Shown here one piece after another: positions 1 through 36,667 of a DNA stretch of 64,000 bases. The translations under genes were made by a program, and so were the position numbers. Within the stretch, counting starts at the first letter, position 1. Each line of letters starts with the position of its first letter. Below the pieces are notes generated by a model. That model searched no databases. It was not told the origin of the DNA and saw only the letters and a program-made list of their open reading frames with translations. Where the stretch lies: positions 1 through 64,000 of IMG/VR virus record IMGVR_UViG_3300035698_023018; one strand, written 5' to 3'. This stretch comes from a virus.

Positions 1-85
1 CCAATGACGATGTTGTCTTAACGGTAAGTTATCTTCTTCACCTTTCCAATGACGATGTTGTCTTAACGGTAAGTTATCTTCTTCA
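1..85 (-). repeat. 45-bp in-frame tandem repeat at the left edge
   Basis: Bases 1-40 are repeated exactly at 46-85, giving a 45-base unit that keeps the reading frame and encodes a 15-residue peptide, GEEDNLPLRQHRHWK, twice. The array may continue beyond the window. It may be a real peptide repeat or an assembly effect at the boundary. Confidence 0.85.
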
Positions 86-2355
86 TCCTTATTAGGACAA
101 GTTTCTGTACGCCTTGGCGGAAGTTTATCCGTTGTTCCCATAGTTCTTCCGGGCGTAAATCCACTACCTTCATCATCCGCTTGATCCATAAAAGGCATAA
201 CTTTACGTTTTGTTCGGTTACGTGGTGTATTTTTTGCATCAAATCCATCACGGTTACCTTGCCAAGGTTGCTGATCATAAGGACTAGTATGCGGACCGTA
301 ATTTCCGCCAGGAGGAGCGCCTTTCTGAAGATCGTGTAAAGTATCATCAGGTGTAGGACTACTTACTGTATTAGCTAATATAGGTTCTAATGCACCGACT
401 AACAATTTCTTCGCACGTTTCACAGAACCAAAACGACGTCTATAGGTAGCACAATCCGCGGCAGTCTTGCCATGTTGAATAACGACGTCGCCTGCACGGA
501 ATTTAGAATACGCTTTCTTGAATAAAGTATATGTCATCCATTGACTATCATTATCGAAAGAAAACGTGGAGAACATATCATTATCTGCGGTCTTTTCCAT
601 CGACTTGATTATACTTGAAAGATAATTCATATCTGACTCTCCTCCCATCGGACCTACTTCAAATAGATTACCTTGTTCGCCGTCACCCGGCGTACGTCCT
701 GATGGCCGATTATGAAAAGGATATCTATGCTTACGTTTCTCTGGCTGTTGTTTAGTAGGAGAATCTCCTGAAGTCCATTCATAGTCCCACTTATCCCCAC
801 CTGGACCAGAAACATCATCTACTGCTTCTTTGCGCATATTCAACTTATTTGCTATATCTGGAGGCATATTTCCCGGTAGATTAGAGTCTTCTGGGGGTTT
901 ATTTAGTTGAATACCTCGTAAATCTTCCATGGAGACAAGTTGGCTCATTACACTATCCGATATATATTTATAAAATCGGTCACCTTTAGGTAAAACGTCA
1001 TCATCTAAAAGACGATATTCCTCAGGTCTTCTCGGTGCGGGAGGACTATCTCCAGGCATAGTAAATAGTGTGGCTAACTCGTCCACACTATACCCATATT
1101 CTATAAGTGAATCATATAATGTATTTAAACGCACACCGATATACTCTTGGAGATTAGAGAAAAAATCTGAATCCCCAAGTTGTGTTCCCCCTAACCATTC
1201 GTCCTGTGGATCCTCCAAAGTTGTAATCGCATCTTCGGTAATTTTATTGATAATATATTCATGGTCAAGCTCTCCTCCACGAACTAAATATGTCGTCACA
1301 TCCCATTCATCGTAGGAATTAGAGTGTTTTGACATATTTAAACGGAAACCACCCTTTTCTCTCTTCGCCCGTTCCTCATCTCGGTATTCTCTCTCAACAC
1401 GTCCTTGAATACCTTCTACAGGAGGATTTGCACGTGCACTGACGGCTTCTGTTGCGGACATCCCTTTACGCTTCGCATCTTCAAACTCTGCGTTAGTAAG
1501 TTTGCCGCTATCGAGTAGTGCTGCTAATTCGTTAAGGCGCTTCTTCTCTGTTTGCTGCTCTTTCGAACTACGCGGATCTCCCTTAGGTTGATCAATAACG
1601 GACTGACCTTCCATCGAAAGAATAGTATTTGAAAGCATACTCATTACTTTACGGGTACGATATAAATCAAATGCCTTATTTCGATATTCTTGACCTTCCG
1701 ACGTATCATTTAACCAGTCTGTCGCTTTTTGGGCTTCTTTACGCGTATTGGCGCCCATAAGATTTAGCGCAAGTTGTTCTGACTTAATTAAATCGTTTCG
1801 TGATCTACTATCCAATAAAGATTGTGCCCGCTCCTTAAGAATATCGGGCAAATCTGCACGCTCGATCATTGATTGCACGGTTGCAATATCTACATTATTT
1901 ATACCTCGCTGAAAAGGTTCAAGATTATCGACCATCCCTTTAATGGCTTCGGGCGGGCCGTACTTTTCTTGCATTGCCTGTTCTTTTTTACCCTCAGGAC
2001 TCTCACTCTTGAGTAAATTCTTCATAATATCGCGGAAAGACGGAGGAACAGGCGCATCAACTAGAGCTTCTTCACTATCCTCGGGTTTTTCTTGTTCCAA
2101 GCGTTTCTGCGCGATTTCTGCAGCAGTCATTGGGGCGTAATCTTCTTCAACCTCTCCTCTTTGACCCTTCGGTGCACCCGGTAATGGTCTTACCGGTGTA
2201 AGTGGTTTTTCACCTTCTGGGAGAACTATATCTGGCTTTTCTTCTTCTGGTATACCCAGCTTTCTCTTTTCGTCATCTGGTACTGAATCTCCGAGGAGAG
2301 CTGCCTTTTTAGTCTTAGGATCGACTGTCCTGGCATCAAAATTGAAACGTTGCAC
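1..2355 (-). CDS. Large virion-region protein with LNM motifs, 3' end beyond window
   Basis: An open frame of 785 codons runs from a GTG at 2355 off the left edge without a stop. The start is set by a perfect GGAGGAG at 2361-2367, 5 bases upstream of the GTG. The product is hydrophilic, rich in Asp, Glu, Lys and Pro, with no signal peptide or membrane segment. It contains the motif R-L-N-M-S-K (DNA 1327-1344) and K-L-N-M-R-K (829-846), also found in other large proteins of this module. Near the left edge it carries a 15-residue tandem repeat. It lies downstream of terL in the packaging block, so a virion or head-assembly role is inferred. No known family was recognised. The frame and start are secure; the function is not. 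Confidence 0.8.
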   Translation of the reverse strand, partial: MQRFNFDARTVDPKTKKAALLGDSVPDDEKRKLGIPEEEKPDIVLPEGEKPLTPVRPLPGAPKGQRGEVEEDYAPMTAAEIAQKRLEQEKPEDSEEALVDAPVPPSFRDIMKNLLKSESPEGKKEQAMQEKYGPPEAIKGMVDNLEPFQRGINNVDIATVQSMIERADLPDILKERAQSLLDSRSRNDLIKSEQLALNLMGANTRKEAQKATDWLNDTSEGQEYRNKAFDLYRTRKVMSMLSNTILSMEGQSVIDQPKGDPRSSKEQQTEKKRLNELAALLDSGKLTNAEFEDAKRKGMSATEAVSARANPPVEGIQGRVEREYRDEERAKREKGGFRLNMSKHSNSYDEWDVTTYLVRGGELDHEYIINKITEDAITTLEDPQDEWLGGTQLGDSDFFSNLQEYIGVRLNTLYDSLIEYGYSVDELATLFTMPGDSPPAPRRPEEYRLLDDDVLPKGDRFYKYISDSVMSQLVSMEDLRGIQLNKPPEDSNLPGNMPPDIANKLNMRKEAVDDVSGPGGDKWDYEWTSGDSPTKQQPEKRKHRYPFHNRPSGRTPGDGEQGNLFEVGPMGGESDMNYLSSIIKSMEKTADNDMFSTFSFDNDSQWMTYTLFKKAYSKFRAGDVVIQHGKTAADCATYRRRFGSVKRAKKLLVGALEPILANTVSSPTPDDTLHDLQKGAPPGGNYGPHTSPYDQQPWQGNRDGFDAKNTPRNRTKRKVMPFMDQADDEGSGFTPGRTMGTTDKLPPRRTETCPNKDEEDNLPLRQHRHWKGEEDNLPLRQHRHW

Positions 2356-2393
2356 TGTTTCTCCTCCTTAACGATCACCGTATAATATAACGT

Positions 2394-3023
2394 TTATTCA
2401 CCAGTTTCGGCAGCCGGCGGTACAGGAATAGCACTATCTCTTACTAGCACCACAACTTCTACCAGCTTAAAATCGTTTTTGGTCACATATTCAAACCGGG
2501 GTGTGTTTAATTGAAAGACCTTACACCCGGCATCAATAAGGACTTTCTCTTTCGCCATTATATCCAATACTGAATTCTGTACAGAGCTCAAATCTTGAAT
2601 GTTAAACGTACCCGACTCAAGCGTATGTGCTTCAAGTATGGTCGTCTCTGTCTTCTCACCCTTGTTTTCGTCTTTTCTAAAAAGACTCAACATTTCGAAT
2701 GACTCTAGATCATCCCCTTGTAACTTAAATTTGTCCGCCAAATCAGGGGTCGCTACTGCATCTGTTTGAGGTACATCATCTGCTATATGTTCTTTATCAT
2801 CCATGAGAACGACATTAAGATGAATAGCACCATCTTCAAGGGTCACCGATACAGATTTGCATTCCAGGGGATCATAATTGTCACCATTCCAATTCACCAA
2901 CAGTTTTGTAGCACTCACAAGAGCTTCTCCTTTCGGGGGTTTGTCAAATACAATATGACTTGCACTTACACCGAACTTTACTTGTTCAGGATCTTTCAAT
3001 AATGTAGAATATAAATCCACCAT
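2394..3023 (-). CDS. Hypothetical protein, virion region
   Basis: A 209-residue soluble protein with an acidic middle section and no recognised domain. Its ATG overlaps the stop of the preceding gene by one base (TAATG), so translation is probably coupled to the WYL-like protein upstream. It shows alternating hydrophobic strands (for example around SVTLEDGAIHLNVVLMDD), which suggests a beta-rich fold, and ends in a Pro/Ala tail. It sits between a WYL-like gene and the large left-edge protein. A structural or assembly role is inferred from position only. Confidence 0.6.
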   Translation of the reverse strand: MVDLYSTLLKDPEQVKFGVSASHIVFDKPPKGEALVSATKLLVNWNGDNYDPLECKSVSVTLEDGAIHLNVVLMDDKEHIADDVPQTDAVATPDLADKFKLQGDDLESFEMLSLFRKDENKGEKTETTILEAHTLESGTFNIQDLSSVQNSVLDIMAKEKVLIDAGCKVFQLNTPRFEYVTKNDFKLVEVVVLVRDSAIPVPPAAETGE

Positions 3024-3430
3024 TAGTATCGAGGAACAAAAAATGTTTCTAACAGTTGTACGTCCATTATATTCGAGAGAAAGAATGATTTAATGGTATC
3101 TGCATTAATGTCGTGCATCCACAGATATCCTGCCGGATGACTTCCTGCACCGCCAATTTCATATGGTTCTCCCACATATAGTTTAATCTCACCACGTCTG
3201 TTCATATATTCAATCTGAATATGCTGACTATTTGCAATTGCAATAGGAATCAACTCTAACGGACTACTTACCCCGACTTCTTCAGGAAGTATTTGCTCTT
3301 CGGGCGGGATAATTTCTTCAGCATTCCCTAATGCGTCTAATTTCCCTATCTCTTCAGGAGTAAGAGCAATATCCTCGCCTTCGGCAAAAGTTTCCTCAAA
3401 GAATGGTTCGTTGTATTCGTCTTCAGACAT
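3023..3430 (-). CDS. Small protein with WYL-like domain
   Basis: A 135-residue protein in two parts. The first 65 residues are strongly acidic and look disordered. The C-terminal part, from about residue 68, reads I-E-Y-x-N-R-x-G-E, then E-P-Y, then G-Y-L-W, and ends with a stretch like T-I-K-S-F-F-L-S-N-I-M-D-V. This matches the order of conserved positions in WYL domains, SH3-like folds that bind ligands or nucleic acid in many bacterial regulators. No DNA-binding HTH is present, so it is a bare WYL-like module. The homology call is by eye. It is coupled by one base to the downstream gene and separated from the metalloprotease gene by a homing endonuclease. Confidence 0.55.
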   Translation of the reverse strand: MSEDEYNEPFFEETFAEGEDIALTPEEIGKLDALGNAEEIIPPEEQILPEEVGVSSPLELIPIAIANSQHIQIEYMNRRGEIKLYVGEPYEIGGAGSHPAGYLWMHDINADTIKSFFLSNIMDVQLLETFFVPRY

Positions 3431-3448
3431 CTTATCTATAATACCCGG

Positions 3449-4144
3449 TTATACGAAGTTTCGTGCTTTTCTACGTTTCCACGCATCCCGCAATTTTTGT
3501 TTATGTTCTATGGAATGACTAATACCTTTATTCCAAGGTACTTGGCCTTTATTAGCTTTACTCATCTTTTGTAAAATTTCCGAAGAGGGTGTAATCCCTT
3601 TATTCCGGGGAATGCGCCCCTTCATCCCAGAAGATTTACCTTTTCGTACATCACTTAACTTTTGGCAAGTTTCTTTAGATCTCTTCTTACCCTTATTAGC
3701 TTTACTTATTTTCTGGCGAGTTTCTATAGAAACTGTGTGGCCTTCCTTGATTTCCCGTAGTTTTCTTTTTGTACTTTCTGAATGTTGAAAACCTTTCAAA
3801 GCTTTACTTATTTTACGTTTAGATATAACGGAAAGTTTCCTACCACTATTCCCCTCGCCTCCTTCTGTTAAATTACATAAAGTACCCATCTCCAAGTCTC
3901 TACGGCCATAATACTTAATCCAATACTTTTCTTGCCTAAAAACTTCTTCTTCAGAAAGATTTGTGTGGAGAAAAATAACTCCTACATTATCTACACCCAC
4001 TTTACGGATTTTGTTCTTCAGTAGATTATTAGAAGTATTTCTATATAAATGTCTACCCACTTTATATCGGTCATTCTTTCCTTTCCCAATATAAAAAGGA
4101 ATGCCCAATTTATCAGTATACATGTAAATATAGAATTTATTCAT
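3449..4144 (-). CDS. GIY-YIG homing endonuclease with NUMOD3 repeats
   Basis: A 231-residue free-standing homing endonuclease. The N-terminus has the GIY-YIG catalytic signature (F-Y-I-Y-M-Y near residue 4, then F-Y-I-G-K-G-K), followed by the conserved region ending in L-T-E-G-G-E-G-N. The C-terminal half is made of short Lys-rich NUMOD3 DNA-binding repeats of the form S-x-E-T-x-x-K-[IL]-S-x-A-x-K-G. It sits between two complete genes with 10-18 base gaps, so it is not intron-encoded. This family cuts related genomes at a specific site and spreads by recombination. It is one of three such genes in the window. Confidence 0.93.
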   Translation of the reverse strand: MNKFYIYMYTDKLGIPFYIGKGKNDRYKVGRHLYRNTSNNLLKNKIRKVGVDNVGVIFLHTNLSEEEVFRQEKYWIKYYGRRDLEMGTLCNLTEGGEGNSGRKLSVISKRKISKALKGFQHSESTKRKLREIKEGHTVSIETRQKISKANKGKKRSKETCQKLSDVRKGKSSGMKGRIPRNKGITPSSEILQKMSKANKGQVPWNKGISHSIEHKQKLRDAWKRRKARNFV

Positions 4145-4154
4145 AATTCAATAG

Positions 4155-4619
4155 TTAAAATTGTAGCGCCGCCGTATATTGACATTTACGTGCTGCTTTA
4201 TAAAAGCTTTTATTCCATAAACCTAAAAGTTTTGCTAGTCGCTTCGTCGCACGCCACGTACGTTGTTCATCAGCACGTTTCGCTTTCAAATTACTAGTAT
4301 ATCCATCAATATTCTCTGCGCGTTCTTCTTTCGTCATCTTTATTGCATCAAGATAATGGCAATATTCATGTATGAGCATGCAAGTAATCTCGATCTTATT
4401 CTTCCTATTAAGTACGTAATCATGAGGTACATCCAGTTCAATATATGTAGACATACTTCTACGAGATAAAGCTGTTGAACCTCCGATTAAATCATCCTGG
4501 TTAATACGCAAAAATATCTTTGGACGTATTCGACATACTTTATTCAAGTGCTCGCTTAATTCTTCAACATAGTTCACTAATGTCCAATATAGACGATCTC
4601 GAATACTACCCACGACCAT
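4155..4619 (-). CDS. Putative zinc metalloprotease (HExxH)
   Basis: A 154-residue protein with H-E-Y-C-H in the context M-L-I-H-E-Y-C-H-Y-L-D near residue 87. This is the HExxH zinc-binding signature of small metallopeptidases (SprT-like or minigluzincin-like). The C-terminal part is Lys/Arg rich. No signal peptide is present, so it acts in the cytoplasm or in the particle. Its start overlaps the end of terL by 14 bases, which places it in the packaging operon. A role in processing virion proteins is an inference from this position; a housekeeping or DNA-protein crosslink protease is the alternative. Confidence 0.6.
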   Translation of the reverse strand: MVVGSIRDRLYWTLVNYVEELSEHLNKVCRIRPKIFLRINQDDLIGGSTALSRRSMSTYIELDVPHDYVLNRKNKIEITCMLIHEYCHYLDAIKMTKEERAENIDGYTSNLKAKRADEQRTWRATKRLAKLLGLWNKSFYKAARKCQYTAALQF

Positions 4620-7600
4620 GTCTCCCTATACGATCACCAACTTGACGCATAGCTACTTGTACTGGACTACGTGCGTTACCGCCTTGAAATAGGCTTGGCA
4701 TTTGTCTACCCTGTTGACCTTTACCTACGGTCTGATGCTTCACAGGCTTACCGGTTTGCTTCATGATATCTTTATATATTTGATGATCACCAGATTGATA
4801 CAAACCATGGCGATATACCAAGTTTGCAAGAATATCTGCAAAGTCATCAGTTTGTACCGGGCCACTATCGGCGTGACCGTATTTAACAATATTACCAGTA
4901 GTAGTCTTTGTCAAGTATTTCAACTCTAGTTTCATCTGCTCTATCCATCCTTCCATGTATGGTGGAGCATTCTCAAAAGTAATTTCAGGCGGCTCACTGA
5001 AACAGTGTACCAAGCCTAAATTCAACTTCTCAAGAAAATTGGTATACATCATGTTCTTGTACTTATTCGTAAAGAAGGTTTCTAATGCAGTATAACCCGC
5101 GTTACGGAGTAATCTAATACTTTCCTGACTATTCCATTGGTCAAATACGATTTCTAACAATACGCCTTGATAACTTAATCTAGCCGCTAACGCTCTGAGG
5201 AATTTTGATACCGCTCCGGCATCAACGGGTACTTGGATGACCTTACCCGTGACTTTATTATGGACCGCTTTCGGACGAAATCCGTGTAAACCATCAATCA
5301 CCACAATGTCGCTTTCACAATGCCCCCAACCTACTGCATATGTATCACTTGAAGAAGCAGGGTCAACGGAAATAATATATTGTCGTTGCCACATGCCTAT
5401 ATAAGTCATCTTCAACCCAGGCTTAACCATAAGATCGATCTTCTCGGAATCAATGAATGAAGTACTAGGTTCACCGAAATGCGCGCCATACTCCATGTTT
5501 GCGCCAATAGGATCCTTCTTAAAGTCACTATCAAATACTTTCCGCGGATACTTTGGATTACATTCCCACGTGGCTAATTGCATAAATAGATAATTATCAT
5601 TCTTTTCAATAATCCCACCAGTTTGTTCACAACCTCCAGCAAGACAATAGTTCCGGTAGAATTCTCCGCCCTTTTCTCTGGGCGAACTGATCATAATGAC
5701 CTTTCCATCAAAGATCATCTTATCCGCCATGATAAAGTCTTTGGTAGAAGGTGACAACGCTTTAAGCATAGCATAGTCAGTTTGGGGCATTTCTGCCAAG
5801 ATATCTTCTTCAGTGGCGCCACCACCTACTGTTTTAGTACGCTCAAAGTGAGCAAACTCATCAAGAATCAAACATATAACAGCCTTACCACGTTTTGATG
5901 CAGCAGACGTAGTAAACGCCGCTACCATGATAGAGCCTTCTAACAAATTCTTCTTCGTTATACCTTTTGTACGGGCATCATTATATTTTCGTATTTGAGC
6001 GTTCTCGTACAAATCGGCAGGAGTGAATAAACGTAATTCTTCAGAGTTATCCTTACTCCAATCTACATACTTTTCAAAGAACGGAATACGCCGAATATTA
6101 TCCTTACATAATCTGAAAGGATCCTGCGCTTGAGATCCATCCTTGGCGCAATTATGTACAAAAATACCATCAGCAAAAAAATTATGAGTTTCTATAACTT
6201 CGATATCATAAGTTTTTTGAATACCTAATGCAGAAATTTCTCGAATGCGAGTCCACTTAAGCCCATCGCAAATTGGATGATTTTTAAATTCTTTATTAGT
6301 CCCATTTTTTGACATTGTAAACCGCCAAATTGGGCCTTCCCCGTAATTCGTACGCATATAAAATGTTGTTACGTTCGAAACATTCCAGCCAACAGAAATG
6401 CATAAATCTCTTAAAGACCGGATTAATTCTTCATTTGATAAAGAAATTGTAGTAATTCCATTCGTTCCTTGATGTCCATCACTATGAATTACTCCTTTTA
6501 AAAGAGCAATTTTTAAAACATCCTGTAACCCGAAAACCCATGAAGGTAATTTTTTAGTTTTAGCTCCCTTATCAAAGCCCCATTGTAAAATATTATTACA
6601 CGCAACTGTAGAATGTACACGGTAAAAATAATTATGGGTGCCAACACCTATAAAATTAGGATCTTGAAATTTTACTGGCGAAAACCATGCGATTTTTGCT
6701 TGATCCATATATTTCTGCTTTTCGGTATCCGTATCTGGAAGGGCAATAGTTAACACCCCACTTGTAGGATTTTCAGCCCTCCCGCAGAAACAAATACTCC
6801 CATCGCCTAAATATAGTCCTAATTGTTCCATAATTTCTAAAGTTGCTGGTGCGCCATTAGGGAGAGTACTCCCAGATTGTTCAGGAACATCAGTTAAAAT
6901 CCCAATATAATCACCTACACATAACTCAGATGCCTCAACCCATTCAGGTTTGCGAGGATTTGCAGGATTGACGCCTTTAGAAAGTCTATAAAATCTATGT
7001 TTCCAACTAGACTCAATTGTACGATTGCCTGTTTTAATTTCAAGGATTTCTTTTTCCCCTGATTCCCAAATATGCTTAATTGTAGAAGTTTGAAGACCTT
7101 TCTCTCCTTTAGAAAGAATAGAGTTGCCCGATTCCAATTCACATATTCTTTTAGTGTTTCCAGCAGGTAAAGTTACTCGAGAATTCGCCGATAAACAGTT
7201 AACAATCCAAATTGGATGCCGTCTACGAATATTGTAATAGGCTTGAGGATCACCCTTACATATAAGTCGATACGCTTCGTATGTCTGAATGAAGGAAATA
7301 AGTGAGGATTTTCCGCTTCGACGACCAAGAACAAGAATAAGAATCTCAACAAATTTTGCAGGATCACGTTTCGTTAGTTCCCAATCAATTTGCCATACAT
7401 TCTTCATAATATCTAGAACAGTTTGTTCTTCTTCAGAGACGGGATACTTTTCCCACAGACCATAGATCACTTTGATTAAAAGCGACTGGAATGGGAATAG
7501 CCGTTCACCTAAATATTTAGAGGAAGTACAGAAAATATACGCGTCGACTTCCTTGATCGGTGCCGTTGCCTTTACCCTGGAGGTATATTGAGTATCAACT

Positions 7601-7626
7601 ACTTTTTTGAAACTAAAGTCGCTCAA
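4606..7626 (-). CDS. terL: Terminase large subunit with intein
   Basis: A 1006-residue precursor of the ATPase-nuclease that packages DNA into the prohead. Walker A is G-R-R-S-G-K-S-S at residues 101-108. Walker B is L-I-L-D-E-F-A-H at about 586-593. The RNase H-like nuclease has V-D-P-A (Asp755), F-D-Q-W (Asp829) and T-D-D-F-A-D (Asp927/928). Residues 144-492 are an intein inserted between the ATPase motifs; removing it leaves about 657 residues, a normal TerL size. The extein junction reads I-W-I-V-N / C-A-K-D-G. The gene abuts the modular 699-residue protein upstream and overlaps the metalloprotease downstream. Confidence 0.95.
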   Translation of the reverse strand: MSDFSFKKVVDTQYTSRVKATAPIKEVDAYIFCTSSKYLGERLFPFQSLLIKVIYGLWEKYPVSEEEQTVLDIMKNVWQIDWELTKRDPAKFVEILILVLGRRSGKSSLISFIQTYEAYRLICKGDPQAYYNIRRRHPIWIVNCLSANSRVTLPAGNTKRICELESGNSILSKGEKGLQTSTIKHIWESGEKEILEIKTGNRTIESSWKHRFYRLSKGVNPANPRKPEWVEASELCVGDYIGILTDVPEQSGSTLPNGAPATLEIMEQLGLYLGDGSICFCGRAENPTSGVLTIALPDTDTEKQKYMDQAKIAWFSPVKFQDPNFIGVGTHNYFYRVHSTVACNNILQWGFDKGAKTKKLPSWVFGLQDVLKIALLKGVIHSDGHQGTNGITTISLSNEELIRSLRDLCISVGWNVSNVTTFYMRTNYGEGPIWRFTMSKNGTNKEFKNHPICDGLKWTRIREISALGIQKTYDIEVIETHNFFADGIFVHNCAKDGSQAQDPFRLCKDNIRRIPFFEKYVDWSKDNSEELRLFTPADLYENAQIRKYNDARTKGITKKNLLEGSIMVAAFTTSAASKRGKAVICLILDEFAHFERTKTVGGGATEEDILAEMPQTDYAMLKALSPSTKDFIMADKMIFDGKVIMISSPREKGGEFYRNYCLAGGCEQTGGIIEKNDNYLFMQLATWECNPKYPRKVFDSDFKKDPIGANMEYGAHFGEPSTSFIDSEKIDLMVKPGLKMTYIGMWQRQYIISVDPASSSDTYAVGWGHCESDIVVIDGLHGFRPKAVHNKVTGKVIQVPVDAGAVSKFLRALAARLSYQGVLLEIVFDQWNSQESIRLLRNAGYTALETFFTNKYKNMMYTNFLEKLNLGLVHCFSEPPEITFENAPPYMEGWIEQMKLELKYLTKTTTGNIVKYGHADSGPVQTDDFADILANLVYRHGLYQSGDHQIYKDIMKQTGKPVKHQTVGKGQQGRQMPSLFQGGNARSPVQVAMRQVGDRIGRHGRG
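6151..7197 (-). other. Intein in TerL with LAGLIDADG endonuclease
   Basis: A 349-residue protein-splicing element, residues 144-492 of TerL. It starts with Cys144 (C-L-S-A-N-S-R-V) and ends with F-V-H-N, followed by Cys as the first downstream extein residue, all typical of a class 1 intein. Two LAGLIDADG-type motifs are present: L-G-L-Y-L-G-D-G-S at about 269-277 and L-L-K-G-V-I-H-S-D-G at about 375-384. The homing endonuclease is therefore probably still intact. The insertion lies in the ATPase domain just after the P-loop region, a conserved site. Confidence 0.93.
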
Positions 7627-9726
7627 TTACACTTCGCCCTCAAAGAAAATAGCGGTTTTGATAGCATTGTACAAAGCTTGCCGCATATTCGCACTTTCTT
7701 GTAACACTGGATTCGTTGATTGGTTTAAGTATGCAGTGAAACCTTCATCTAATAACTGATTGACTAAAGTAGAAGCATCACTGAAGCGAATTTTGTCCGC
7801 ATCCTCTTGAATCACATTTGCGCCATCTGGACCAGTAACACCTTGTTCGTATAAACCACTCCATATATAATTAATTATAAATGATTCCGCCGTCTTATAT
7901 ACTTCCGAAGCCTGGGATTCACCATAAGTTTCATCGGGAAATTCTACGCCCCCAATATTGAGCGCAGTCTTTTTCATGTTCAACTTACGTCCACTATACA
8001 TAAATTCTCTAGACCATTTCTGAGGCAATTCTGAATTGTTACTTAACCATGTTAACCATTTTTCACTATCCGCGCCAAGGATATAATCTGTAGTAAAGCC
8101 TGAAAAATGTACAGAGTTCAATATCTTATGAAACGCCTGAATTTTTATATCTATATCTGGCGTAGATATCCCCTCTGGTATTAAAGTGTCATACAATACA
8201 ATAGCTGCCCCTCCGGGCTTATCAGGAAGGTCAAATCCTACTCCACTAGTTTCTGTAATATCCTGAATTTGTGTAAGTAATTTTTCGAGAAGAAGGGTTA
8301 ATTCATTTTCAATTTCAATACCCTTTTCAGGTTGTTGGTACTGTTGCGATAACCATCGTTTATATTCCAATTCATATACTTTAAGTATCTCCATTGGATC
8401 AACGCGCGGGGCGGCCCCCATATCACTTGTATATTCTCTATACTTTTGAGCACTTTCGTAAAACTTGTCAATTTTATCCGGGTTATCTATAAACTCTTCT
8501 AAATTTTCGGTATATTCCGTTCCAGTTTCATCACGCCAAAAGTTTAAGGTAGATTCATCCACTATAGGCGCAGGAAATTTATACGAGATCTTTCGCATGT
8601 TCAACTTACGTGCGTTAGATATCCCAGGTGGTGGGCCTTCGGGACCCCAAGGAGAACCTTCTGCTTGAGTATCAATAGGAGGCTCTTTCGGAGTATTAAT
8701 AGGCACAACTGCAATATGATAATGCTGCGGTTCGTTTACTCCTTCAGGTTGGAAATTTACTACAGCCTCGGCCCCGTCAACCGTATAGTTGGCGGATATT
8801 CTCTCAAGACCTTCAGTTATTTTCTGAAGTAAATCCGTAGTAAAAGTTGCAGCATGTTTTCGCATATTCAATTTAGACATGCCATAAAGATCAAACTCCT
8901 CTGTACTTTCTGGCATAACGGGACGTTCAATACCTCCCCCGTCACCGGTCGTAAGAAGTCCTTGTCTATGTGCTTCATGAATCAACTCAAGCATACCTAT
9001 AGGATCAGGTGGATTAAGGCGCTCAAGAAGTTCTTCTAGAGTTAGTGCCACATTATCCGCCCCAAATATACTGAGTAATTGATACATTTCCGGGGATCCT
9101 TCCCCTGCACCCTGTATAAAGTCAAACCCTTTCGGGGTTAAAGATGTTGCGGCCCTCTTTTTCATATTCAATTTACTCGCAAGGCCATCTGGCATATTTT
9201 CAGGTAAGTCGAGGGGTGGTTGAGTTATTTCCCCCTCAAAAGGATCCCCCTGGACAACTTCAATAAGACCGTCACGTAGTGCCTGATCATATTTATCGTG
9301 TAACATGAGCCTTTCTTGATCATATTGCGCATCAGTTTCATATTCTCCCTCGCTCATTACATGATCCACGAAACTTTCAGGAGTGTTTGTTCTATATTGA
9401 TTTAATATGACTGAGGGTTGATTCATACTAGAAAATTCAGTATAACGCTCTTCGAGATACTTTACCGTAGATAATAAGAGATACATGGGCTCATCAAATT
9501 TTAAATAATCAGCGAGTTCATATGAAGGAGAATTAACTATATCACCCGTAGAAAGATCTTGTTCCTGCACAAAATGTGCTATATTACTGCGGACCCATTT
9601 ATTCCATTCATCATAAAGGTATAGACCCTTTGCAGTCAACTTAACATACGACGATTGTTCTTGCGCATCTTCCGCGAGCTTCTTCATGTTCAAATGACTC
9701 ACCATTTTACGAAGATTTAGGGACAT
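7627..9726 (-). CDS. Modular virion-region protein with repeated KLNM[RK]K motifs
   Basis: A 699-residue protein built of several unlike modules, each introduced by almost the same motif: H-L-N-M-K-K (residues 11-16), K-L-N-M-K-K (185-190), K-L-N-M-R-K (285-290 and 374-379) and K-L-N-M-K-K (581-586). The first two modules both continue with L-T-x-K-G, hinting at a shared small fold. The start at 9726 has GAGGAAG six bases upstream. A second ATG at 9705 directly follows the upstream stop and is an alternative. The gene abuts terL. No family was recognised. The layout suggests a fusion or polyprotein of small units; motif function is unknown. Confidence 0.75.
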   Translation of the reverse strand: MSLNLRKMVSHLNMKKLAEDAQEQSSYVKLTAKGLYLYDEWNKWVRSNIAHFVQEQDLSTGDIVNSPSYELADYLKFDEPMYLLLSTVKYLEERYTEFSSMNQPSVILNQYRTNTPESFVDHVMSEGEYETDAQYDQERLMLHDKYDQALRDGLIEVVQGDPFEGEITQPPLDLPENMPDGLASKLNMKKRAATSLTPKGFDFIQGAGEGSPEMYQLLSIFGADNVALTLEELLERLNPPDPIGMLELIHEAHRQGLLTTGDGGGIERPVMPESTEEFDLYGMSKLNMRKHAATFTTDLLQKITEGLERISANYTVDGAEAVVNFQPEGVNEPQHYHIAVVPINTPKEPPIDTQAEGSPWGPEGPPPGISNARKLNMRKISYKFPAPIVDESTLNFWRDETGTEYTENLEEFIDNPDKIDKFYESAQKYREYTSDMGAAPRVDPMEILKVYELEYKRWLSQQYQQPEKGIEIENELTLLLEKLLTQIQDITETSGVGFDLPDKPGGAAIVLYDTLIPEGISTPDIDIKIQAFHKILNSVHFSGFTTDYILGADSEKWLTWLSNNSELPQKWSREFMYSGRKLNMKKTALNIGGVEFPDETYGESQASEVYKTAESFIINYIWSGLYEQGVTGPDGANVIQEDADKIRFSDASTLVNQLLDEGFTAYLNQSTNPVLQESANMRQALYNAIKTAIFFEGEV

Positions 9727-10507
9727 TTCCTACTTCCTCATACTCAGCATCTACTGCTTTCACAGGATCAAGTACCGGTGCAATTTCAGCATCAAGTAAA
9801 TCACCTAATTGCTCCTTTACTCTTTCACGTGTCAAGTTATCGGGAATTTCTTTAACCAGTACGTCCATAAATTTCGCAGTGAATGTGAGGAATGAACGTT
9901 TTAGGCTCTCAATATACTGAATACTTACCTGTTTCACATATAGATCAGCATCTACTTGAATGTGTTTCAACAAATCTTGCTGAAATCCCCTATATGCTAT
10001 CTCTAAATCACTAATCAACTTTCTACGAACAGCTAAATCGGCCTCATCTAATATGCCACCATCCATCACCTCACGAGCATTATACCTTTCGATTTCAGAC
10101 TGTAAATGGAACAGATTTTGTAGTCTCTGCTTATACAACGTATCTGCAGCAGACATCTTATCAAAATCTTTGTCAAACTCTTTTTTATAGAGCGCCTTAG
10201 TTACAGTATTATAATCATCTTCAGGTATAGCAGCTAAGACAACATCTCTGCCTGCATTAACCGCAGCAGCCGGAGAAACATGCTGCTTATGTGAATGTAT
10301 ATTAGTAGGTGTCAGTGGTGGTTCAAATAAATGTCCCCAGTTCGCAATGATCTGAGAACTCGTCATCTTTTTAAAAATGGCTTGAGTAATCTCATTCCTT
10401 GCCGTAGACTTACAAATTTTGCAAGTCGCAGATACGACCATCTTACCATCTTTCATCAAATCTACATTTGACGGTCTTCCCACTTTTCTACTAGTATCCG
10501 TGGACAT
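9707..10507 (-). CDS. Possible small terminase subunit (HTH plus helical protein)
   Basis: A 266-residue protein with a clear AAGGAG ribosome-binding site. The N-terminal 80 residues have a basic G-R-P-S motif, C-K-I-C at about residues 30-33, a helix-turn-helix-like stretch (S-S-Q-I-I-A-N-W-G-H-L-F) and H-S-H-K-Q-H, possibly a zinc-stabilised DNA-binding head. The remainder is largely helical and charged, as expected for an oligomerising coiled-coil region. The gene lies two positions before terL in the same transcript, which together with the HTH makes a small terminase subunit plausible. This is an inference from architecture and context, not a family match. Confidence 0.5.
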   Translation of the reverse strand: MSTDTSRKVGRPSNVDLMKDGKMVVSATCKICKSTARNEITQAIFKKMTSSQIIANWGHLFEPPLTPTNIHSHKQHVSPAAAVNAGRDVVLAAIPEDDYNTVTKALYKKEFDKDFDKMSAADTLYKQRLQNLFHLQSEIERYNAREVMDGGILDEADLAVRRKLISDLEIAYRGFQQDLLKHIQVDADLYVKQVSIQYIESLKRSFLTFTAKFMDVLVKEIPDNLTRERVKEQLGDLLDAEIAPVLDPVKAVDAEYEEVGNVPKSS

Positions 10508-10528
10508 TCACGTACTCCTTATCTTTAC

Positions 10529-13500
10529 TTATGCCGCGAGCGCAAAATTCAGCTCTTGTACATCATCTAACAATCCCGCAATGGTATTGTATGCATTCTG
10601 ATACAAGCTTGCCAGGTATTGATCATCTCCATCAACTGCGGATGTTTTTGCTGGCCACTGTCTATATTTACCGACAGTTACTTGGCTAATTTCATCTAAG
10701 TTCTTCTGTGCTTCAGCAATAGCTTGCGCGGCTTTAGGACCAAACCTTTCTAAGAGGATTTTTACCTGTGCAGAAGGAGTCAACTTACCACTTTTAACTG
10801 CCTCTGCGTAATATCCTATTTGATCATCTGCCTGAATAAGCCTCTGATCCAATTCAGCCATCAATGCAGCAAGCGCTTTCGTTGCACGTAACTGATTTTG
10901 GCCTTCTTCACCGATTTGTGTCGTAATCGGAGCGAGCTTTTCTTGAAGTTCAAGTTGTGCTTGCTGTACCTGTGAACGTAACTGATCTACAGTAGCTTTA
11001 CTCGCGGCAAGGCCTTGCATCAATTCTGCTTGATCAGGAGTAGCTTCTACAGGTTCACCTTCAGGAACTTGGGGCGACTTACGTGATAAAAAAGATGGGG
11101 GTTCAATGCGCACCGTAGGGTCCACAGCTTCACCCTCATCCGGAACCGTAAGGTCCTCCGATTTACTCCATGGCCAATCGATTGCCGTCTTCGTCAAATT
11201 CAACTTAGCCGTCCGTTGCAACTCACGTTGATTACGTACTTCATCCATCTTTGCCTGTTGTATAGCATTACAAGCACTACACATACCATGTGACTGAACA
11301 GTTGCGTATTCTTCAGGAGTTAACTGCCTAATAGGCTTACCAGTAACATCGTCATACACACTTTGACACCACGCGCACACACTATCCATACCTTCAGGAT
11401 TCATTCCCATGGCTTTACGATCTTGGCGTGCATTAGATTGCAAAGATGCAAACAATGAATCAGTATCAGTCACTTCATCTTGATTCATCTCAGCCTTTGC
11501 CTCTTCTTCCATCTTACGCAAGCGTGTATAGTAATCAGGAATTTCTTTCAGATGATCTTTAGCAATCTCTTCGGCTAATTCCTTATCAACAGTGTGCTCC
11601 TTTTCAATTTCAACGCCCATAGAAAGTTCTTCGGGATCAAAATCTGATAATGGATCACCATCAGCTAATCCCCCAGGCAACTTATCTTCGGTTTCGGTAG
11701 CTTCCTCTTTAACAGGGGAAGGTGTACCCGCCCCCTCAGCTTTTCCCTCGGCGCCCCTTGATGGGGAAGTAATGATTTCCTTCTCTAATGGCATTTGTTT
11801 GAAAAGATCACTAAGTTTCTCTTCAGCCTGCTTCCGAATAATCTGAGGATCAACAGCAGCATGAGCGGTAGGGAAGAAAGTATCACGATCAACTTTAAAT
11901 GTATCGATTAAAGACTGTAATTCCTCAAGAGAGTATATGCCATCTTTCAGTTTTTGCATATCAACTTTCGTAGGCGGAATATTGCCTGCTCTCAAATAAT
12001 CCTGTACCATGCCTTTTAGACGACTGTAATTAATAGGATTCTGACCTACTTCTTTACTATCTAAATCAATCCCGGTTGATTCAGCCTCTTTTTGCATCGC
12101 ATCAACTTCCGCATTCTTACCCTTAAACATGGTTGAATACTCACGCTCTTCCATCGGTAGAATACCACCATCAGTCTCGTTATACTTCATGTCGAATTCA
12201 GCTTCAAACTCATCAGTCGTCGCAATACTCTCGCCCGAATCCGGATCAACGATCGGTACGTAAGTATCTTTGTCTCTGAGAGCGTGCTTAACCTGACTTT
12301 CAGTAAGCGCAACAACTGCAATTGCCTGTGCCTTATTCGATGCAGTACTTATATCACAACCACTATCAAGAGCAGTGTTATACTCGGCTACATACGAACT
12401 AATCCACTGAGTAGCTTGATCAGCTGTCATATTATCGAAGTTAAACTCAGCACGAACCATTTCAGCAGTTTTATGTAAACGCGGAATCATATCAGCTTCA
12501 GCTTGCTTAATTAATTCAGCGGCTTTATCTGCAAACATCGTTGCTTGAGGAACATCCCCTACAAGAAGTGAGCCCGCTTGGTCATATTCGGCTTGCGTAA
12601 GTAATCGTTGTCCACGAGTCGCTTGACGTACTTCTTCGTACGCTTCAGGAAACGCTAATCCCGCCTCAATGGCTTGAAAAAGAGTATCGTCACCAAACAT
12701 CTCCATCATAGCGGCAGATTTCATATTCAAATTGCCGCTAGTAACACCGAGATCGGCTGTGAAACTTCCTGCATTAGTCGGTGTGACTAATGGAGGGTTA
12801 GTGCCAGTTCCAGTATCAGTAGTAGCCGCATTAGGTTGTTGCTTAACTACCTGCTTCACTTGTTCAATAGCAGCCGGATCAGTTACGCCCATTCCTTCAA
12901 TCGCAGCATTTAGTTGAGTATCATCAACTGCGGTCTTATTCATCTTCTTATTAGCTGCAGAAATTTCGCGGAATCGCGTAGGATCTGGATAGCGATAAGT
13001 CAATGAAGGAATCTTATGATCAGGCATTGCAGCATCATACAACTTACCGGAAGTAAGATCCTCAATAGCATGAACCGTTAAAGGATACTCTGTTCCTGAA
13101 AGAGTTCGGAATGTACGCGGATAAATAAGTTTACCGTCAATATCTACGCCGGCTTGGATGATTATCCGATTTCGGGTATTGTTATAATCCATGAATTCAA
13201 CAGTAAATTCCGCACCTTTAGCACTTCTCGGCTGGCCGGGAAATTTTTGCGCACGAATACCCCGTTGAAACTTCAACTGCGGATTATCAATACCGAATTG
13301 CTGAATATACTCACCGGTTTGTTGAACAATTCTACCATAGATAGCTTTGTCAACCCAAGTATCGATACCTCTATTAGGTGCCCGGTTAATATCGACAAAC
13401 CTTTCAGAGCGGTTAACGATATGTGTGAGATCTTTAACAACTGCAGTTCGACCTGTTCGAAGAATTCCTGCACATTTCGGACATTCAATATAACTATTGC

Positions 13501-13705
13501 CAGATCTTGCAGCTTTCTTTACCTGAACTTCAACATCGCTCGAAGTAAACTGCAGGTGACATTGAGGACAGTCATATGTCGCAACTACTGAGTGAGAATT
13601 CACGGGTAAATTGACGTGGAGCAACCCTTGCTGCTCTGCCTCTTTGCCCGCCTCACTTTTAAGCTTTGTGACATCCAACCATTTTGGATGATTTGAGTTA
13701 GTCAT
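10529..13705 (-). CDS. Large zinc-finger virion-region protein
   Basis: A 1058-residue protein with a strong start (GAGGG then ATG). It contains a C-P-Q-C / C-P-K-C zinc finger at about residues 45-80 and a second cluster, C-A-W-C and C-S-A-C, in the last third. Between them are long acidic, Pro/Glu-rich and coiled-coil stretches. It carries N-L-N-M-K-S (DNA 12718-12735) and K-L-N-L-T-K followed by T-A (11189-11206), plus other x-K-T-A sites such as M-N-K-T-A-V-D-D. This links it to the other motif-bearing proteins of the module. No portal, capsid or tail family was recognised. A structural or internal head role is inferred from size and position. Confidence 0.7.
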   Translation of the reverse strand: MTNSNHPKWLDVTKLKSEAGKEAEQQGLLHVNLPVNSHSVVATYDCPQCHLQFTSSDVEVQVKKAARSGNSYIECPKCAGILRTGRTAVVKDLTHIVNRSERFVDINRAPNRGIDTWVDKAIYGRIVQQTGEYIQQFGIDNPQLKFQRGIRAQKFPGQPRSAKGAEFTVEFMDYNNTRNRIIIQAGVDIDGKLIYPRTFRTLSGTEYPLTVHAIEDLTSGKLYDAAMPDHKIPSLTYRYPDPTRFREISAANKKMNKTAVDDTQLNAAIEGMGVTDPAAIEQVKQVVKQQPNAATTDTGTGTNPPLVTPTNAGSFTADLGVTSGNLNMKSAAMMEMFGDDTLFQAIEAGLAFPEAYEEVRQATRGQRLLTQAEYDQAGSLLVGDVPQATMFADKAAELIKQAEADMIPRLHKTAEMVRAEFNFDNMTADQATQWISSYVAEYNTALDSGCDISTASNKAQAIAVVALTESQVKHALRDKDTYVPIVDPDSGESIATTDEFEAEFDMKYNETDGGILPMEEREYSTMFKGKNAEVDAMQKEAESTGIDLDSKEVGQNPINYSRLKGMVQDYLRAGNIPPTKVDMQKLKDGIYSLEELQSLIDTFKVDRDTFFPTAHAAVDPQIIRKQAEEKLSDLFKQMPLEKEIITSPSRGAEGKAEGAGTPSPVKEEATETEDKLPGGLADGDPLSDFDPEELSMGVEIEKEHTVDKELAEEIAKDHLKEIPDYYTRLRKMEEEAKAEMNQDEVTDTDSLFASLQSNARQDRKAMGMNPEGMDSVCAWCQSVYDDVTGKPIRQLTPEEYATVQSHGMCSACNAIQQAKMDEVRNQRELQRTAKLNLTKTAIDWPWSKSEDLTVPDEGEAVDPTVRIEPPSFLSRKSPQVPEGEPVEATPDQAELMQGLAASKATVDQLRSQVQQAQLELQEKLAPITTQIGEEGQNQLRATKALAALMAELDQRLIQADDQIGYYAEAVKSGKLTPSAQVKILLERFGPKAAQAIAEAQKNLDEISQVTVGKYRQWPAKTSAVDGDDQYLASLYQNAYNTIAGLLDDVQELNFALAA

Positions 13706-13712
13706 TATACCC

Positions 13713-14357
13713 TCATTTATCCTTAATATTTGTTCTTTTAACTTGATTATATTTTCGAAGACCTTCTGCGATTTTCCGCTTAGTCTCTTCGGGCATTTTT
13801 CTACCCTTAGCCCAGGATATCTGGTCCTTGTGGGCGATACTCATCCGTTTTCGTGCGTCAGCTGAAAAAACTCTCCCACGATTAGATCCCGGTTTACCTT
13901 TCAATGCTTTACTTAATTTCTGCTTAGTTTTAGCCGACATTTTCTTACCTATATTCCACGCAACTTGACCTTTATGCGCTTTACTCATCTTCTGTTTAGC
14001 TTCTTTAGAATGTTTACGCCCAGTATGTCCCGCGTCACCATTACCACCTGCAGCAATATTGGTAAGTTTATGTCCCTGCGTCCGTAGAAAATTTATCCAA
14101 TGTATTTCCCTAGCTTCCCACGAACTTTCATCAGTTTTCTCTAAAATTATTAAACCTGATCGAATTCCTTGAGACATTAAAGATTTAATCCAATACCGCC
14201 TGTATGGTCCCTTCATATTATAATCCGAGGGACGTGTATGTTGAAGATATCGTGCACGCGGATTTTTAGATTTTCCGACATAACGTACTTGCATAGTTAT
14301 AGGACAAAGTAACCCATATATACAGATATTACTGAGTGTTTGTGTAACTTGTTGCAT
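13713..14357 (-). CDS. GIY-YIG homing endonuclease with NUMOD3 repeats
   Basis: A free-standing homing endonuclease of about 214 residues from the chosen ATG at 14357. The catalytic signature is C-I-Y-G-L near residue 12 and V-R-Y-V-G-K-S about a dozen residues later. The conserved L-T-N-I-A-A-G-G-N-G-D segment follows. The rest is NUMOD3-type repeats (for example T-K-Q-K-L-S-K-A-L-K-G-K). The frame stays open to 14498, but that region overlaps the end of the upstream protein. Starts at 14387 or 14357 leave the GIY domain complete, and neither has a strong Shine-Dalgarno. It was inserted between two virion-region genes that both look complete. Confidence 0.9.
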   Translation of the reverse strand: MQQVTQTLSNICIYGLLCPITMQVRYVGKSKNPRARYLQHTRPSDYNMKGPYRRYWIKSLMSQGIRSGLIILEKTDESSWEAREIHWINFLRTQGHKLTNIAAGGNGDAGHTGRKHSKEAKQKMSKAHKGQVAWNIGKKMSAKTKQKLSKALKGKPGSNRGRVFSADARKRMSIAHKDQISWAKGRKMPEETKRKIAEGLRKYNQVKRTNIKDK

Positions 14358-14367
14358 ATCAACGGGT

Positions 14368-16713
14368 TCAGAAATTTGTCGGTACATCCATTCCACTAAG
14401 ATCAGCAGCACCACCATCTGGCGCCTGTGGACTACCGCCCACTTGACCCGGTTGAGGACCCGGTCCTGGGGGGGATTGACCTGGATTAGGACCACCATCT
14501 AAACCAGGTTCTGCACCTGCAAGTTCAATCGGCGGAGCCTCTTCTTGATCATAGTCGATAGTGATCTTTTTATTCTCCGGATCAAGTTCAATATTGATCT
14601 TTGGAGCAGCTTCTTCAAATGGTATGGACTGATCAGCTAAATTCTCTTGCAATGCATTTTGCAACATATTCGGATCTGCATCGCCTGCACCAGGATTCTT
14701 AACTTCCCAGCCCATCGGATCTACATCCATTCCACCTGGATATCCACCTCCACCACCGCGGAGAGTTTCCATACCTGGTAAATCTAAAGCGAATTTTTGA
14801 CCCGTCGCAGTTTCAAATACTGTGAAGGCAAAAACATCACCTGCAGTCTCTAATAGTTGCTCAACGTGCTTATATCCCAACTTGGCTAATCCTCTACGGA
14901 GAATGTTCCAATTGATCTTCGGGAATGATGTAGTATGGTCGGCAATAAGATGTGCAGCCACAATCGGCATACCACATTTACGGGCCATTGTGTTTACCGC
15001 GTCATGGATAAACTTCTGTTTATCTCTCAAAATTCCGAATTCCGTAGGTTTCATTGATACGATCGGGATATGCTCATTTAGGGCATAAGAAAGTTTCTCT
15101 ACTGCCATAGAATGTACATCTGCTTGGGTAAGTGCATGATTACCTTGGAGATCCCACGGATCCGCTTCAGGCTTAGGTTCAACTATCGCGAAATCCTCGG
15201 TAGTTGGAGCTTCCGCAGCTTCATCAGCGGCAGTAGTATACAACCACTCACTCAATTCATTCTTATCCTCAGATGATAATGCTTGACGCATTTCTACGGG
15301 TAAATATTTACCCATGAACAGAGTAATTGCCTGCTTCACTATAGTATTTTCAAGTTCTGCAGCAACCGCAACTCCTGGTGACTCTGTTTCATGATTACGC
15401 AACGCTTGTGAAACCATCCCTTCTACAAAATCAAGAGCCGAAGCTTTAACGCTATCAAATTCCGGACCAAGCACAGCAGTTTTTTGCGGACCACTATCAG
15501 ATGACTGTCTCACTGGAGATGCATCCATAGGTAACGCTGAAACAGGTGCTTCAAATCCTTGACCAGGTTTCATTTTCATAATATCTGTATCATATAAAAG
15601 CGCAGGATCTTGAGCACCGAAATCAATCATGTAAAACTTGCCCAATTTCCGATCGAAACTAACGTCAATGATTGTACCTTGTTCGCCAGTACTCTTTTTC
15701 TGTACTTGATCACCAATATTCAACTGACGACCACGTTTTACAAAACCAATAAATTCAGCATTCGCAAATTGACTTGCCGGCATTGAAGTACCTGCAGACA
15801 TTTCAGCAGATGATGGATTAGCCTTAATTGATGGTGGGAAAGCATCAGGCATTCCACGCATACCTGAAGGAGAATCCATTCCCATTCCAGCAGACGACGG
15901 AGTAGCTTCGCCCATACCTGAAGGATCAGGCATATCCATCGGAGGTACAGGATATGCGCCCTTCATATAGTCCTTGAACATCTTGGCATCACCCGGATCA
16001 TTGGGATCAGTAGTGATGTTTTGAATAGTTATACCCATCTTGGTAACTTTACAGATATCCGTAATACGCGCAGTTAATTGTTGCCCACCTGCGCCTTCAA
16101 AATGTACGTAGGCATTGTTATGACTAAATCGGGTAACTTTACCCCCAGTATTTTTACGGGAGAACATTCTTACGTTATCACCGACGGAAAGCTCTTTAGC
16201 ATCTTTGACTGTAGTAAGATCAGTATTCTCAATCCAGAATGAAGTACCATCATCGAAAGTCAATTGTGACTTTACAGGATCAGCAGCGGTTACTTCACCA
16301 CGCTTACCTTTATACTTATTATGAACGGACTCTCTATGTCGTGGCGTGACTTCAACTAAATCACCAGCATTCATGACGATTGCTTCTTTTTCAATCGATG
16401 CAGTTTTAGTCAGACCCATTGCAGCAGCTTTTAGTCCCCGCAGGATATTATCCTGTTGATCAGTATAACAAACTAACCAATCTTCACCACCAATATTCTC
16501 AACAGACCAAATATTGCCTGCATCTTTATCTTCATTACGCTGAAAGACATCAAAACCAATTTTCTTAAAACCTTGGTCCTTCGCTTCTGCGAATAAAACA
16601 TGTCCTGCGCCACGTAACGCTACTCTTCGTTTATCAACCTTTGCTTGATTGACCTTACTTAGAATCGTCTGATTCTGTTGAACTATCTCCTGCCGCGAAT
16701 TCGGCTGTCTCAT
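14368..16713 (-). CDS. Virion-region protein with KOW/SH3-like segments
   Basis: A 781-residue protein. The ATG at 16713 is chosen because GGAGGG lies 7 bases before it; an ATG at 16728 contains that ribosome-binding site and is unlikely. Two segments, after Y-K-G-K-R-G-E-V and after S-T-G-E-Q-G-T-I-I-D-V, resemble KOW/SH3-like beta barrels. A long Met/Pro/Gly-rich stretch follows. A helical region then ends in an acidic, Pro/Gly-rich tail. Two x-K-T-A sites (L-T-K-T-A-S, P-Q-K-T-A-V) recall those in neighbouring large proteins. No known family was recognised. It is the first big gene after the promoter candidate at 16.92 kb. Confidence 0.7.
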   Translation of the reverse strand: MRQPNSRQEIVQQNQTILSKVNQAKVDKRRVALRGAGHVLFAEAKDQGFKKIGFDVFQRNEDKDAGNIWSVENIGGEDWLVCYTDQQDNILRGLKAAAMGLTKTASIEKEAIVMNAGDLVEVTPRHRESVHNKYKGKRGEVTAADPVKSQLTFDDGTSFWIENTDLTTVKDAKELSVGDNVRMFSRKNTGGKVTRFSHNNAYVHFEGAGGQQLTARITDICKVTKMGITIQNITTDPNDPGDAKMFKDYMKGAYPVPPMDMPDPSGMGEATPSSAGMGMDSPSGMRGMPDAFPPSIKANPSSAEMSAGTSMPASQFANAEFIGFVKRGRQLNIGDQVQKKSTGEQGTIIDVSFDRKLGKFYMIDFGAQDPALLYDTDIMKMKPGQGFEAPVSALPMDASPVRQSSDSGPQKTAVLGPEFDSVKASALDFVEGMVSQALRNHETESPGVAVAAELENTIVKQAITLFMGKYLPVEMRQALSSEDKNELSEWLYTTAADEAAEAPTTEDFAIVEPKPEADPWDLQGNHALTQADVHSMAVEKLSYALNEHIPIVSMKPTEFGILRDKQKFIHDAVNTMARKCGMPIVAAHLIADHTTSFPKINWNILRRGLAKLGYKHVEQLLETAGDVFAFTVFETATGQKFALDLPGMETLRGGGGGYPGGMDVDPMGWEVKNPGAGDADPNMLQNALQENLADQSIPFEEAAPKINIELDPENKKITIDYDQEEAPPIELAGAEPGLDGGPNPGQSPPGPGPQPGQVGGSPQAPDGGAADLSGMDVPTNF

Positions 16714-16885
16714 GAGTAGTCCCTCCATTTATAGTATCAGCATCATTTTTTACATCATGAACAATAACTTCACCACATTTACAGATAGTTTCACCATCTG
16801 TTACTGCAAGAATTACAGTCGCACCACATTTACTACATAACCGCGTTGCAGCAGTTATTATAGCGGCAACTTTTTTAGTAAGCAT
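16655..16885 (-). CDS. Small zinc-ribbon protein
   Basis: A 76-residue protein whose start at 16885 has AAGGAAA seven bases upstream. The N-terminal half carries C-S-K-C and C-K-C, with V-I-L-A-V-T-D-G between them, a compact zinc-ribbon arrangement. The C-terminal half is acidic and Ser/Thr-rich. It is the first gene after the promoter candidate at 16918-16946 and overlaps the next gene by 59 bases. No specific family can be named. An alternative upstream ATG at 16906 lacks a ribosome-binding site. Confidence 0.65.
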   Translation of the reverse strand: MLTKKVAAIITAATRLCSKCGATVILAVTDGETICKCGEVIVHDVKNDADTINGGTTHETAEFAAGDSSTESDDSK

Positions 16886-36285: not shown

Positions 36286-36287
36286 TT

Positions 36288-36659: not shown

Positions 36660-36667
36660 AATCTTTC

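Follow-up and report, generated by a model that had tools for sequence, protein, structure and literature searches.

In phage T4, unrelated cargo proteins of the head carry a short N-terminal signal, the capsid targeting sequence (CTS), a stretch of about 10 residues of which residues 4 and 7 serve targeting and residues 8 and 10 serve processing (PMC9026906). The analysis below concerns a short peptide motif in the packaging region of IMG/VR virus record IMGVR_UViG_3300035698_023018, studied in a window of bases 1-64000 of this 66.6-kb contig (labelled G000). The motif is two-part, with an L-[N/S]-[M/L]-[R/K]-K portion, hereafter the tag, and a K-x-[A/S] end. By analogy, the best reading is that it would be a counterpart of the T4 CTS and its protease site, repeated into polyprotein-like head cargo. 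The motif resembles the CTS (PMC9026906) as a short N-terminal signal on unrelated candidate head cargo and on head proteins only, offering a route to new cargo, and in a similar layout, with proposed docking residues (hydrophobic Leu and Met) adjoining a predicted P3-x-P1 protease site (K-x-A). Unlike the CTS, the motif has the sequence LN[ML][RK]K and a predicted K-x-[A/S] specificity, compared with L/I-x-E at the T4 gp21 site; it also occurs between modules and at C-termini, and its function is a proposed one. By sequence and by protease specificity the motif is not a T4 CTS, but the T4 signal is a named system that works in a like manner, where the earlier sequence-only reading knew of none with this motif.

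Three other systems bear comparison. As proposed here, many inner-head proteins of the giant phages SPN3US (A-x-E; PMC10052503, PMC5694885) and phiKZ (a short motif ending in Glu; PMC9026906) are processed at P3-x-P1 sites, with several sites per propeptide, and the propeptides are thought to target proteins; P1 is Glu there, whereas Ala or Ser is predicted here, and the portions of these reports at hand describe no repeated inter-module tag. The polyvalent proteins of phages and plasmids (PMC5512222) are likewise large, join unlike domains and are encoded near head genes; packaging and injection have been proposed for them, and some are proteolytically processed (P1 DdrB), whereas the portion of that source at hand describes no common module-border tag, and Pfam recognised no enzymatic domain in the window's modular proteins. 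The head of Bacillus phage G (gp27 capsid protein, gp19 protease; PMC5646251, PDB 6wkk) has a protease and a capsid protein that are homologous to those here (38% identity for the capsid protein); its head genes are enriched in Lys followed two residues later by Ala (K.A), and its capsid protein is cut after Ala, but no LN[ML][RK]K tags were seen in its head region.

Distribution and register of the motif

The packaging region is common to three contigs: that of the window, a 130-kb relative (G001), whose terminase large subunit (TerL) is 84% identical to that of the window with the intein excluded, and a 35.7-kb outgroup (G002), whose TerL is 67-68% identical. Gene calls are open reading frames, with uncertain starts in some, and nearly all long genes of the window lie on the minus strand. 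A scan of IMG/VR with the strict pattern KLNM[RK]KTA, limited to Lys codons and AGR codons for Arg, matched the 130-kb relative alone; a wider pattern returned that relative and 21 chance matches, unrelated or out of frame. Few or no relatives came from protein scans in which the 1058-residue protein and the terminase served as queries, or from two scans of contigs from bacterial genomes. An alignment of four capsid proteins, used in the same way, found at least 545, of which 80 were retained.

The motif is real rather than a product of chance: LN[ML][RK]K occurs six times in the 699-residue protein, against a mean of 0.0019 (maximum 1) after shuffling. Five of these copies had been recognised in the sequence-only reading, which missed the N-terminal SLNLRK. 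All the copies listed in that reading are present, in frame and on the minus strand, although one in the 1058-residue protein (NLNMKS) lies at 12716-12733 rather than at 12718-12735. The motif is restricted to head genes, for L[NS][MLF][RK]K has no copy outside the head region of the window contig (15,298 residues) and one in 23,848 residues outside that of the 130-kb relative, which matches the chance expectation. Synonymous-codon identity among 16 strict copies is 0.45, where codon usage alone predicts 0.44 +- 0.04, so that selection acts on the peptide and not on the DNA, as had been proposed; two copies in the 1190-residue protein of the 130-kb relative are an exception to this divergence, being identical over about 29 bases. 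The proposal that Ala often follows the motif closely can be sharpened to a fixed register, with Lys at L+4 in 20 of 22 copies and Ala or Ser at L+6 in 17.

The motif sits at N-termini and at module borders and, in relatives, at C-termini as well. The tag in the form L-x-[LMF]-[RK]-K occurs four times within the first 30 residues of proteins of the 130-kb relative (0.04 expected, p=1.6e-7) and seven times within the last 30 residues of proteins of L051-L058 (0.42 expected, p=3.2e-7). Several unrelated head-region proteins begin with it, namely those of 699, 341, 694 and 178 residues. A 722-residue protein of L055 (1305-3470), encoded beside the portal, has tags at both ends: it starts with MLNLRKISLKLRKTS and ends with GLSLRKKIKLSLRKKIGLSLRKKN, its C-terminus being a triple copy (GLSLRKKI-KLSLRKKI-GLSLRKKN), and the C-terminus of a 144-residue protein is L-[SV]-[LM]-[RK]-K in four of L051-L058. 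Because a C-terminal tag has no downstream module to release, the tag is taken as a docking motif and not solely as a cleavage signal; this enrichment at protein ends suggests that LN[ML][RK]K is probably a docking tag. The counterpart of the 722-residue protein in L054 has 392 residues, this tagged protein beside the portal being a further one of variable size.

Lys-x-Ala sites in head genes and in the capsid protein

The K-x-[A/S] end was assessed by an unbiased scan, in which observed and expected counts were compared for all ordered pairs of residues one to five positions apart (about 2000 pairs). K.A at offset 2 ranks first of 1985 pairs in the head genes of the 130-kb relative (69 observed, 44 expected), second of 1970 in those of the window (49, 29), and first in the head genes of Bacillus phage G (gp7-gp27; 51, 28) and of Tunturi_5 (40, 20), and it ranks between 138th and 1193rd, without significance, in tail and other genes of the same phages. 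The positive control, T4 gp20-24, returned I.E as its top pair and so recovered the known gp21 site; the enriched pair in the head genes of the window and the 130-kb relative is K.A, not I.E or L.E. R.A ranks first in the head genes of Gordonia phage RedWattleHog (L039), a hint that the protease of actinobacterial relatives may recognise [RK]-x-A. With the motif copies masked, K.A is still significant in the head region of the window (p=0.008) and in the head/neck cluster of the 130-kb relative (p=0.003), but these p-values carry no correction for how many pairs or sets were compared, and the argument rests on rank across independent phages. Of 22 alignment columns with an invariant Lys, 6 are followed at +2 by an Ala that is invariant too, compared with 0-2 at other offsets. 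The further x-K-T-A sites pointed out in the sequence-only reading belong to this enrichment, to which the 1058-residue protein contributes 15 K-x-A sites where 6.9 are expected.

K-x-A sites are conserved in the capsid propeptide. The closest relatives (G001, L051-L055) have three at the N-terminus of the capsid protein, K-Q-A (before SSYPPGF), K-[TSN]-A (before PNAGF) and E-K-[TKQ]-A, in each of which Lys and Ala are fixed and the residue between them is free; L056 is looser. More distant capsid proteins (L059-L062, L068, L071) have a single K-[VE]-A left, and this pattern is broken by L063, where it is missing, and by L058, which has K-T-G. The protease-scaffold protein has the N-terminus [RQ]K[YF]AS, and the 144-residue head protein, encoded upstream, carries K-x-[AS]. 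The head-maturation protease of the 130-kb relative is the N-terminal part of a 1330-residue protein (phrog_18299, E=2e-12), and its capsid protein matches phrog_2522 (3e-51); the window, part of a fragmentary contig, showed no such protease gene. Phage G is the one phage for which N-terminal data were found: its capsid protein has 282 residues before and 255 after maturation (PMC5646251, Table 1), a loss of 27 that places the cut after A27 (ALA|Q), and the residues aligned to this cut are K-L-A in LR745208 and Tunturi_5, which supports Ala at P1. Judged from pair ranks and capsid N-termini, K-x-A is likely to be the site of the head-maturation protease. In L054 the capsid-protein gene is split (10001-10990) and in L057 (8600-10134) an endonuclease-like open reading frame precedes it, which suggests a mobile insert or a frameshift; the portal of L054 (3-2435) apparently contains an intein.

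Module gain and loss, and competing explanations

Within the 699-residue protein no pair of modules matches at E<0.05, which bears out the earlier description of the modules as unlike. In the left-edge protein of the window a module of 165 residues is flanked by a pair of motif copies, and the counterpart in the 130-kb relative has one copy and no module; the reverse is seen in the 1058-residue protein, where the window has one copy at a site that in the relative holds two, the first of them opening a 104-residue module. The 699-residue protein corresponds in the 130-kb relative to a protein of 341 residues with a different set of modules: the module that is second in the window is first there, placed immediately after the tag at the N-terminus, and both proteins share the last module. 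The outgroup lacks the entire gene, with nothing of it between TerL and the TerS-like gene, and its homologue of the 1058-residue protein has GLGLGKRAF where the 130-kb relative has GLGLSRKLNMKKKA, that is, K-x-A without the tag. In these alignments relatives differ by entire modules, each gained or lost as a segment that runs from one motif to the next. As each module has its own tag, such a cassette could be gained, lost or moved with the remainder left intact. A clustering of K-x-A sites at the indels was considered and abandoned after comparison of their proximity with that of other residues.

The explanation that we favour, and consider somewhat probable as a whole, is a two-part head-assembly signal made up of a docking tag and a protease site. 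The tag would bring a polypeptide into the forming head, its partner being probably either the capsid protein, on its inner face, or the protease-scaffold protein, and K-x-[A/S] would be the P3-x-P1 recognition site of the maturation protease, with the cut after Ala or Ser. At an N-terminus, docking would be followed by trimming, as with the T4 CTS; where the motif is repeated internally, one gene would carry unrelated modules in tandem, and the protease would separate the docked modules within the head, releasing free modules with whatever roles these may have. Whether the internal copies are actually cut is close to an even question on the sequence evidence, our judgement leaning slightly against it. 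More tentative still is the polyprotein reading, by which unrelated small head proteins are made as a single polypeptide, brought into the prohead through its repeated tags and cut free by the maturation protease, so that phages can exchange cargo modules with one another as cassettes. Of the three roles offered in the sequence-only reading (cleavage, packaging or docking), cleavage fits the K-x-[A/S] end, from pair statistics and capsid N-termini, and docking fits LN[ML][RK]K, from protein ends, but the motif is not a cleavage signal alone; that small cargo is cut from long precursors is plausible, being consistent with the module-by-module gains and losses.

Several observations weigh against the two-part signal. 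Ala or Ser is missing at L+6 in 5 of 22 motif copies, and K-x-A sites are no nearer to indels than other residues are. K.A is weak in the outgroup (28 observed, 22 expected), is not enriched in the phage-G-like contigs L073-L079 and, once motif copies are masked, is not significant in the packaging cluster of the 130-kb relative alone (32/25, p=0.11). The known cut of phage G has Ala and not Lys at P3, and the homologous residues of the 130-kb relative read ALG. No K-x-A follows the C-terminal tag copies, and docking and cutting are thus separable.

The most probable alternative is that LN[ML][RK]K serves for docking only, as a short motif for binding that lies in the flexible linkers of large head or packaging proteins; these would remain uncut, with their modules joined, and the adjacent K-x-A would be a separate matter. 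The C-terminal copies, including the triple of L055, require no cutting, tandem double copies at N-termini would suit avidity, and the copies that lack Ala or Ser fit as well; nevertheless, Lys at L+4 and Ala or Ser at L+6 stand in the register of the site that is enriched in head proteins and conserved in capsid propeptides, and docking alone is unlikely. A recombination scar, by which repeated motif DNA promotes in-frame shuffling of modules through homologous recombination and the peptide has no function, would account for the clean motif-to-motif indels and for the two near-identical copies of the 1190-residue protein, but it is at odds with codon identity at the level expected from codon usage, with solitary copies at N- and C-termini and with the limitation to head genes, and is very improbable, although recombination at the motif may be a route of module movement. 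About as improbable, or slightly more so, is a structural role in which every module repeats one fold and the motif forms its opening turn or strand: the motif does lie at each module start, and the first two modules have a loose LTxKG pattern in common (by eye), but the modules do not match one another and the motif occurs also at protein ends. Initiation of separate small proteins at the LNM codon ATG, which most copies hold in frame, was rejected as scarcely credible, since a Shine-Dalgarno-like sequence (a 4-base match) precedes 2 of 16 strict copies, 3 protein-start copies being unscored, and the LNL, LNF and LSL variants have no ATG there. Self-splicing inserts were also rejected, as the Pfam intein is found in TerL only and not in the 699-, 785- and 1058-residue proteins.

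Other features of the window and significance

The features discussed are collected in Table 1. LN[ML][RK]K is not present in the 786-residue head-region protein. The only Pfam family above cut-off in the modular proteins is DUF5661 (window 11501-11632), a widespread module often found in head-gene neighbourhoods; elsewhere it occurs beside the small terminase (cyanophage S-SRM01) and inside a DUF2213 protein (Vibrio phage VPs20), and in Flavobacterium phage immuto it is preceded by N-terminal LRQIIKE. Repeated tags on DUF5661 proteins of other phages were considered and rejected, that of immuto having this single N-terminal sequence and no repeated tag seen. The 694-residue protein of the 130-kb relative has a weak nucleotidyltransferase match, and the 178-residue protein looks methyltransferase-like to the eye. 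AlphaFold2 models of the 699- and 1058-residue proteins were too poor to be used (predicted local distance difference test, pLDDT, 41 and 43), and sequence searches of the PDB with the modular proteins gave nothing useful.

Table 1. Positions of motif copies, K-x-[A/S] sites and the genes that contain them
Feature	Position	Strand	Remarks
785-residue left-edge protein	1-2355	-	truncated by contig end; 2 motif copies around module of ~165 residues
K-T-A site MEKTADND	586-594	-	785-residue protein; kept in G001 as MQKTADND
Motif KLNMRK-E-A	829-846	-	785-residue protein; aligns with sole G001 copy NLNMRK-D-A
Motif variant RLNMSK-H-S	1327-1344	-	opens extra module of 785-residue protein
TerL	4606-7626	-	intein-interrupted; marks packaging region
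699-residue modular protein	7627-9726	-	6 motif copies, at least 5 modules; between TerS-like gene (9707-10507) and TerL
Motif KLNMKK, then T-A	7969-7986	-	699-residue protein; starts conserved C-terminal module (78% identical in G001)
Motif KLNMRK, then I-S	8590-8607	-	699-residue protein
Motif KLNMRK, then H-A	8857-8874	-	699-residue protein
Motif KLNMKK, then R-A	9157-9174	-	699-residue protein; starts module shared with G001 341-residue protein, residues 8-98 (41% identity)
Motif HLNMKK, then L-A	9679-9696	-	699-residue protein
Motif SLNLRK	9706-9723	-	699-residue protein, residues 2-7, N-terminal
1058-residue protein	10529-13705	-	zinc-ribbon-like N-terminus; DUF5661 (residues 692-735); 2 motif variants
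Motif variant KLNLTK-T-A	11189-11206	-	1058-residue protein; within C-terminal extension missing from G002
K-x-A, KQA/KRA/KGA	11825-11833	-	1058-residue protein; invariant in the three relatives
K-x-A, KEA/KEA/KLA	12083-12091	-	1058-residue protein; invariant in the three relatives; adjoins G002 insertion
Motif variant NLNMKS-A-A	12716-12733	-	1058-residue protein; KLNMKK twice in G001, GKRA in G002
K-x-A, KTA/KTA/KKA	12929-12937	-	1058-residue protein; invariant in G000, G001 and G002, x varies
786-residue head-region protein	14368-16728	-	conserved K-x-[AS] sites
K-x-[AS], KTA/KTA/KTS	15475-15483	-	786-residue protein
K-x-[AS], KTA/KVA/KKA	16399-16407	-	786-residue protein

The intein of TerL (Pfam Intein_splicing), inserted at IWIVN|C, is the same in the 130-kb relative, and the outgroup has none at that site. 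An intein-like insert is apparent by eye in the nucleotide-binding loop (GSGKCIKFDSQ ... IIVHNSRS) of a replicative-helicase-like protein (39290-42124). Three genes resembling GIY-YIG/NUMOD3 homing endonucleases lie amid the head and neighbouring genes (3449-4144, 13713-14498 and 17787-18548), the last of which was covered by the family search. At its left end (window 1-80) the contig encodes EEDNLPLRQHRHW twice and diverges from the 130-kb relative just before, probably through faulty assembly at the contig end. By eye, positions 33133-38060 and about 46000-64000 contain a phage GroEL-like gene, genes resembling those of the queuosine/7-deazaguanine pathway and then, from about 46 to 64 kb, an extended cluster for sugar modification.

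K-x-[A/S] provides a testable maturation-protease rule for uncultured relatives of Bacillus phage G, which make up a large group, no published rule of this type for the group having been found in the literature searched. The candidate packaging tag, distinct from that of T4, could reveal head cargo from sequence and might serve to load proteins into heads. This group of large phages appears to tag the proteins that are loaded into the head, with modules gained and lost between relatives, and such turnover at the tag, if true, would give phages a direct means of altering what they bring into a cell.

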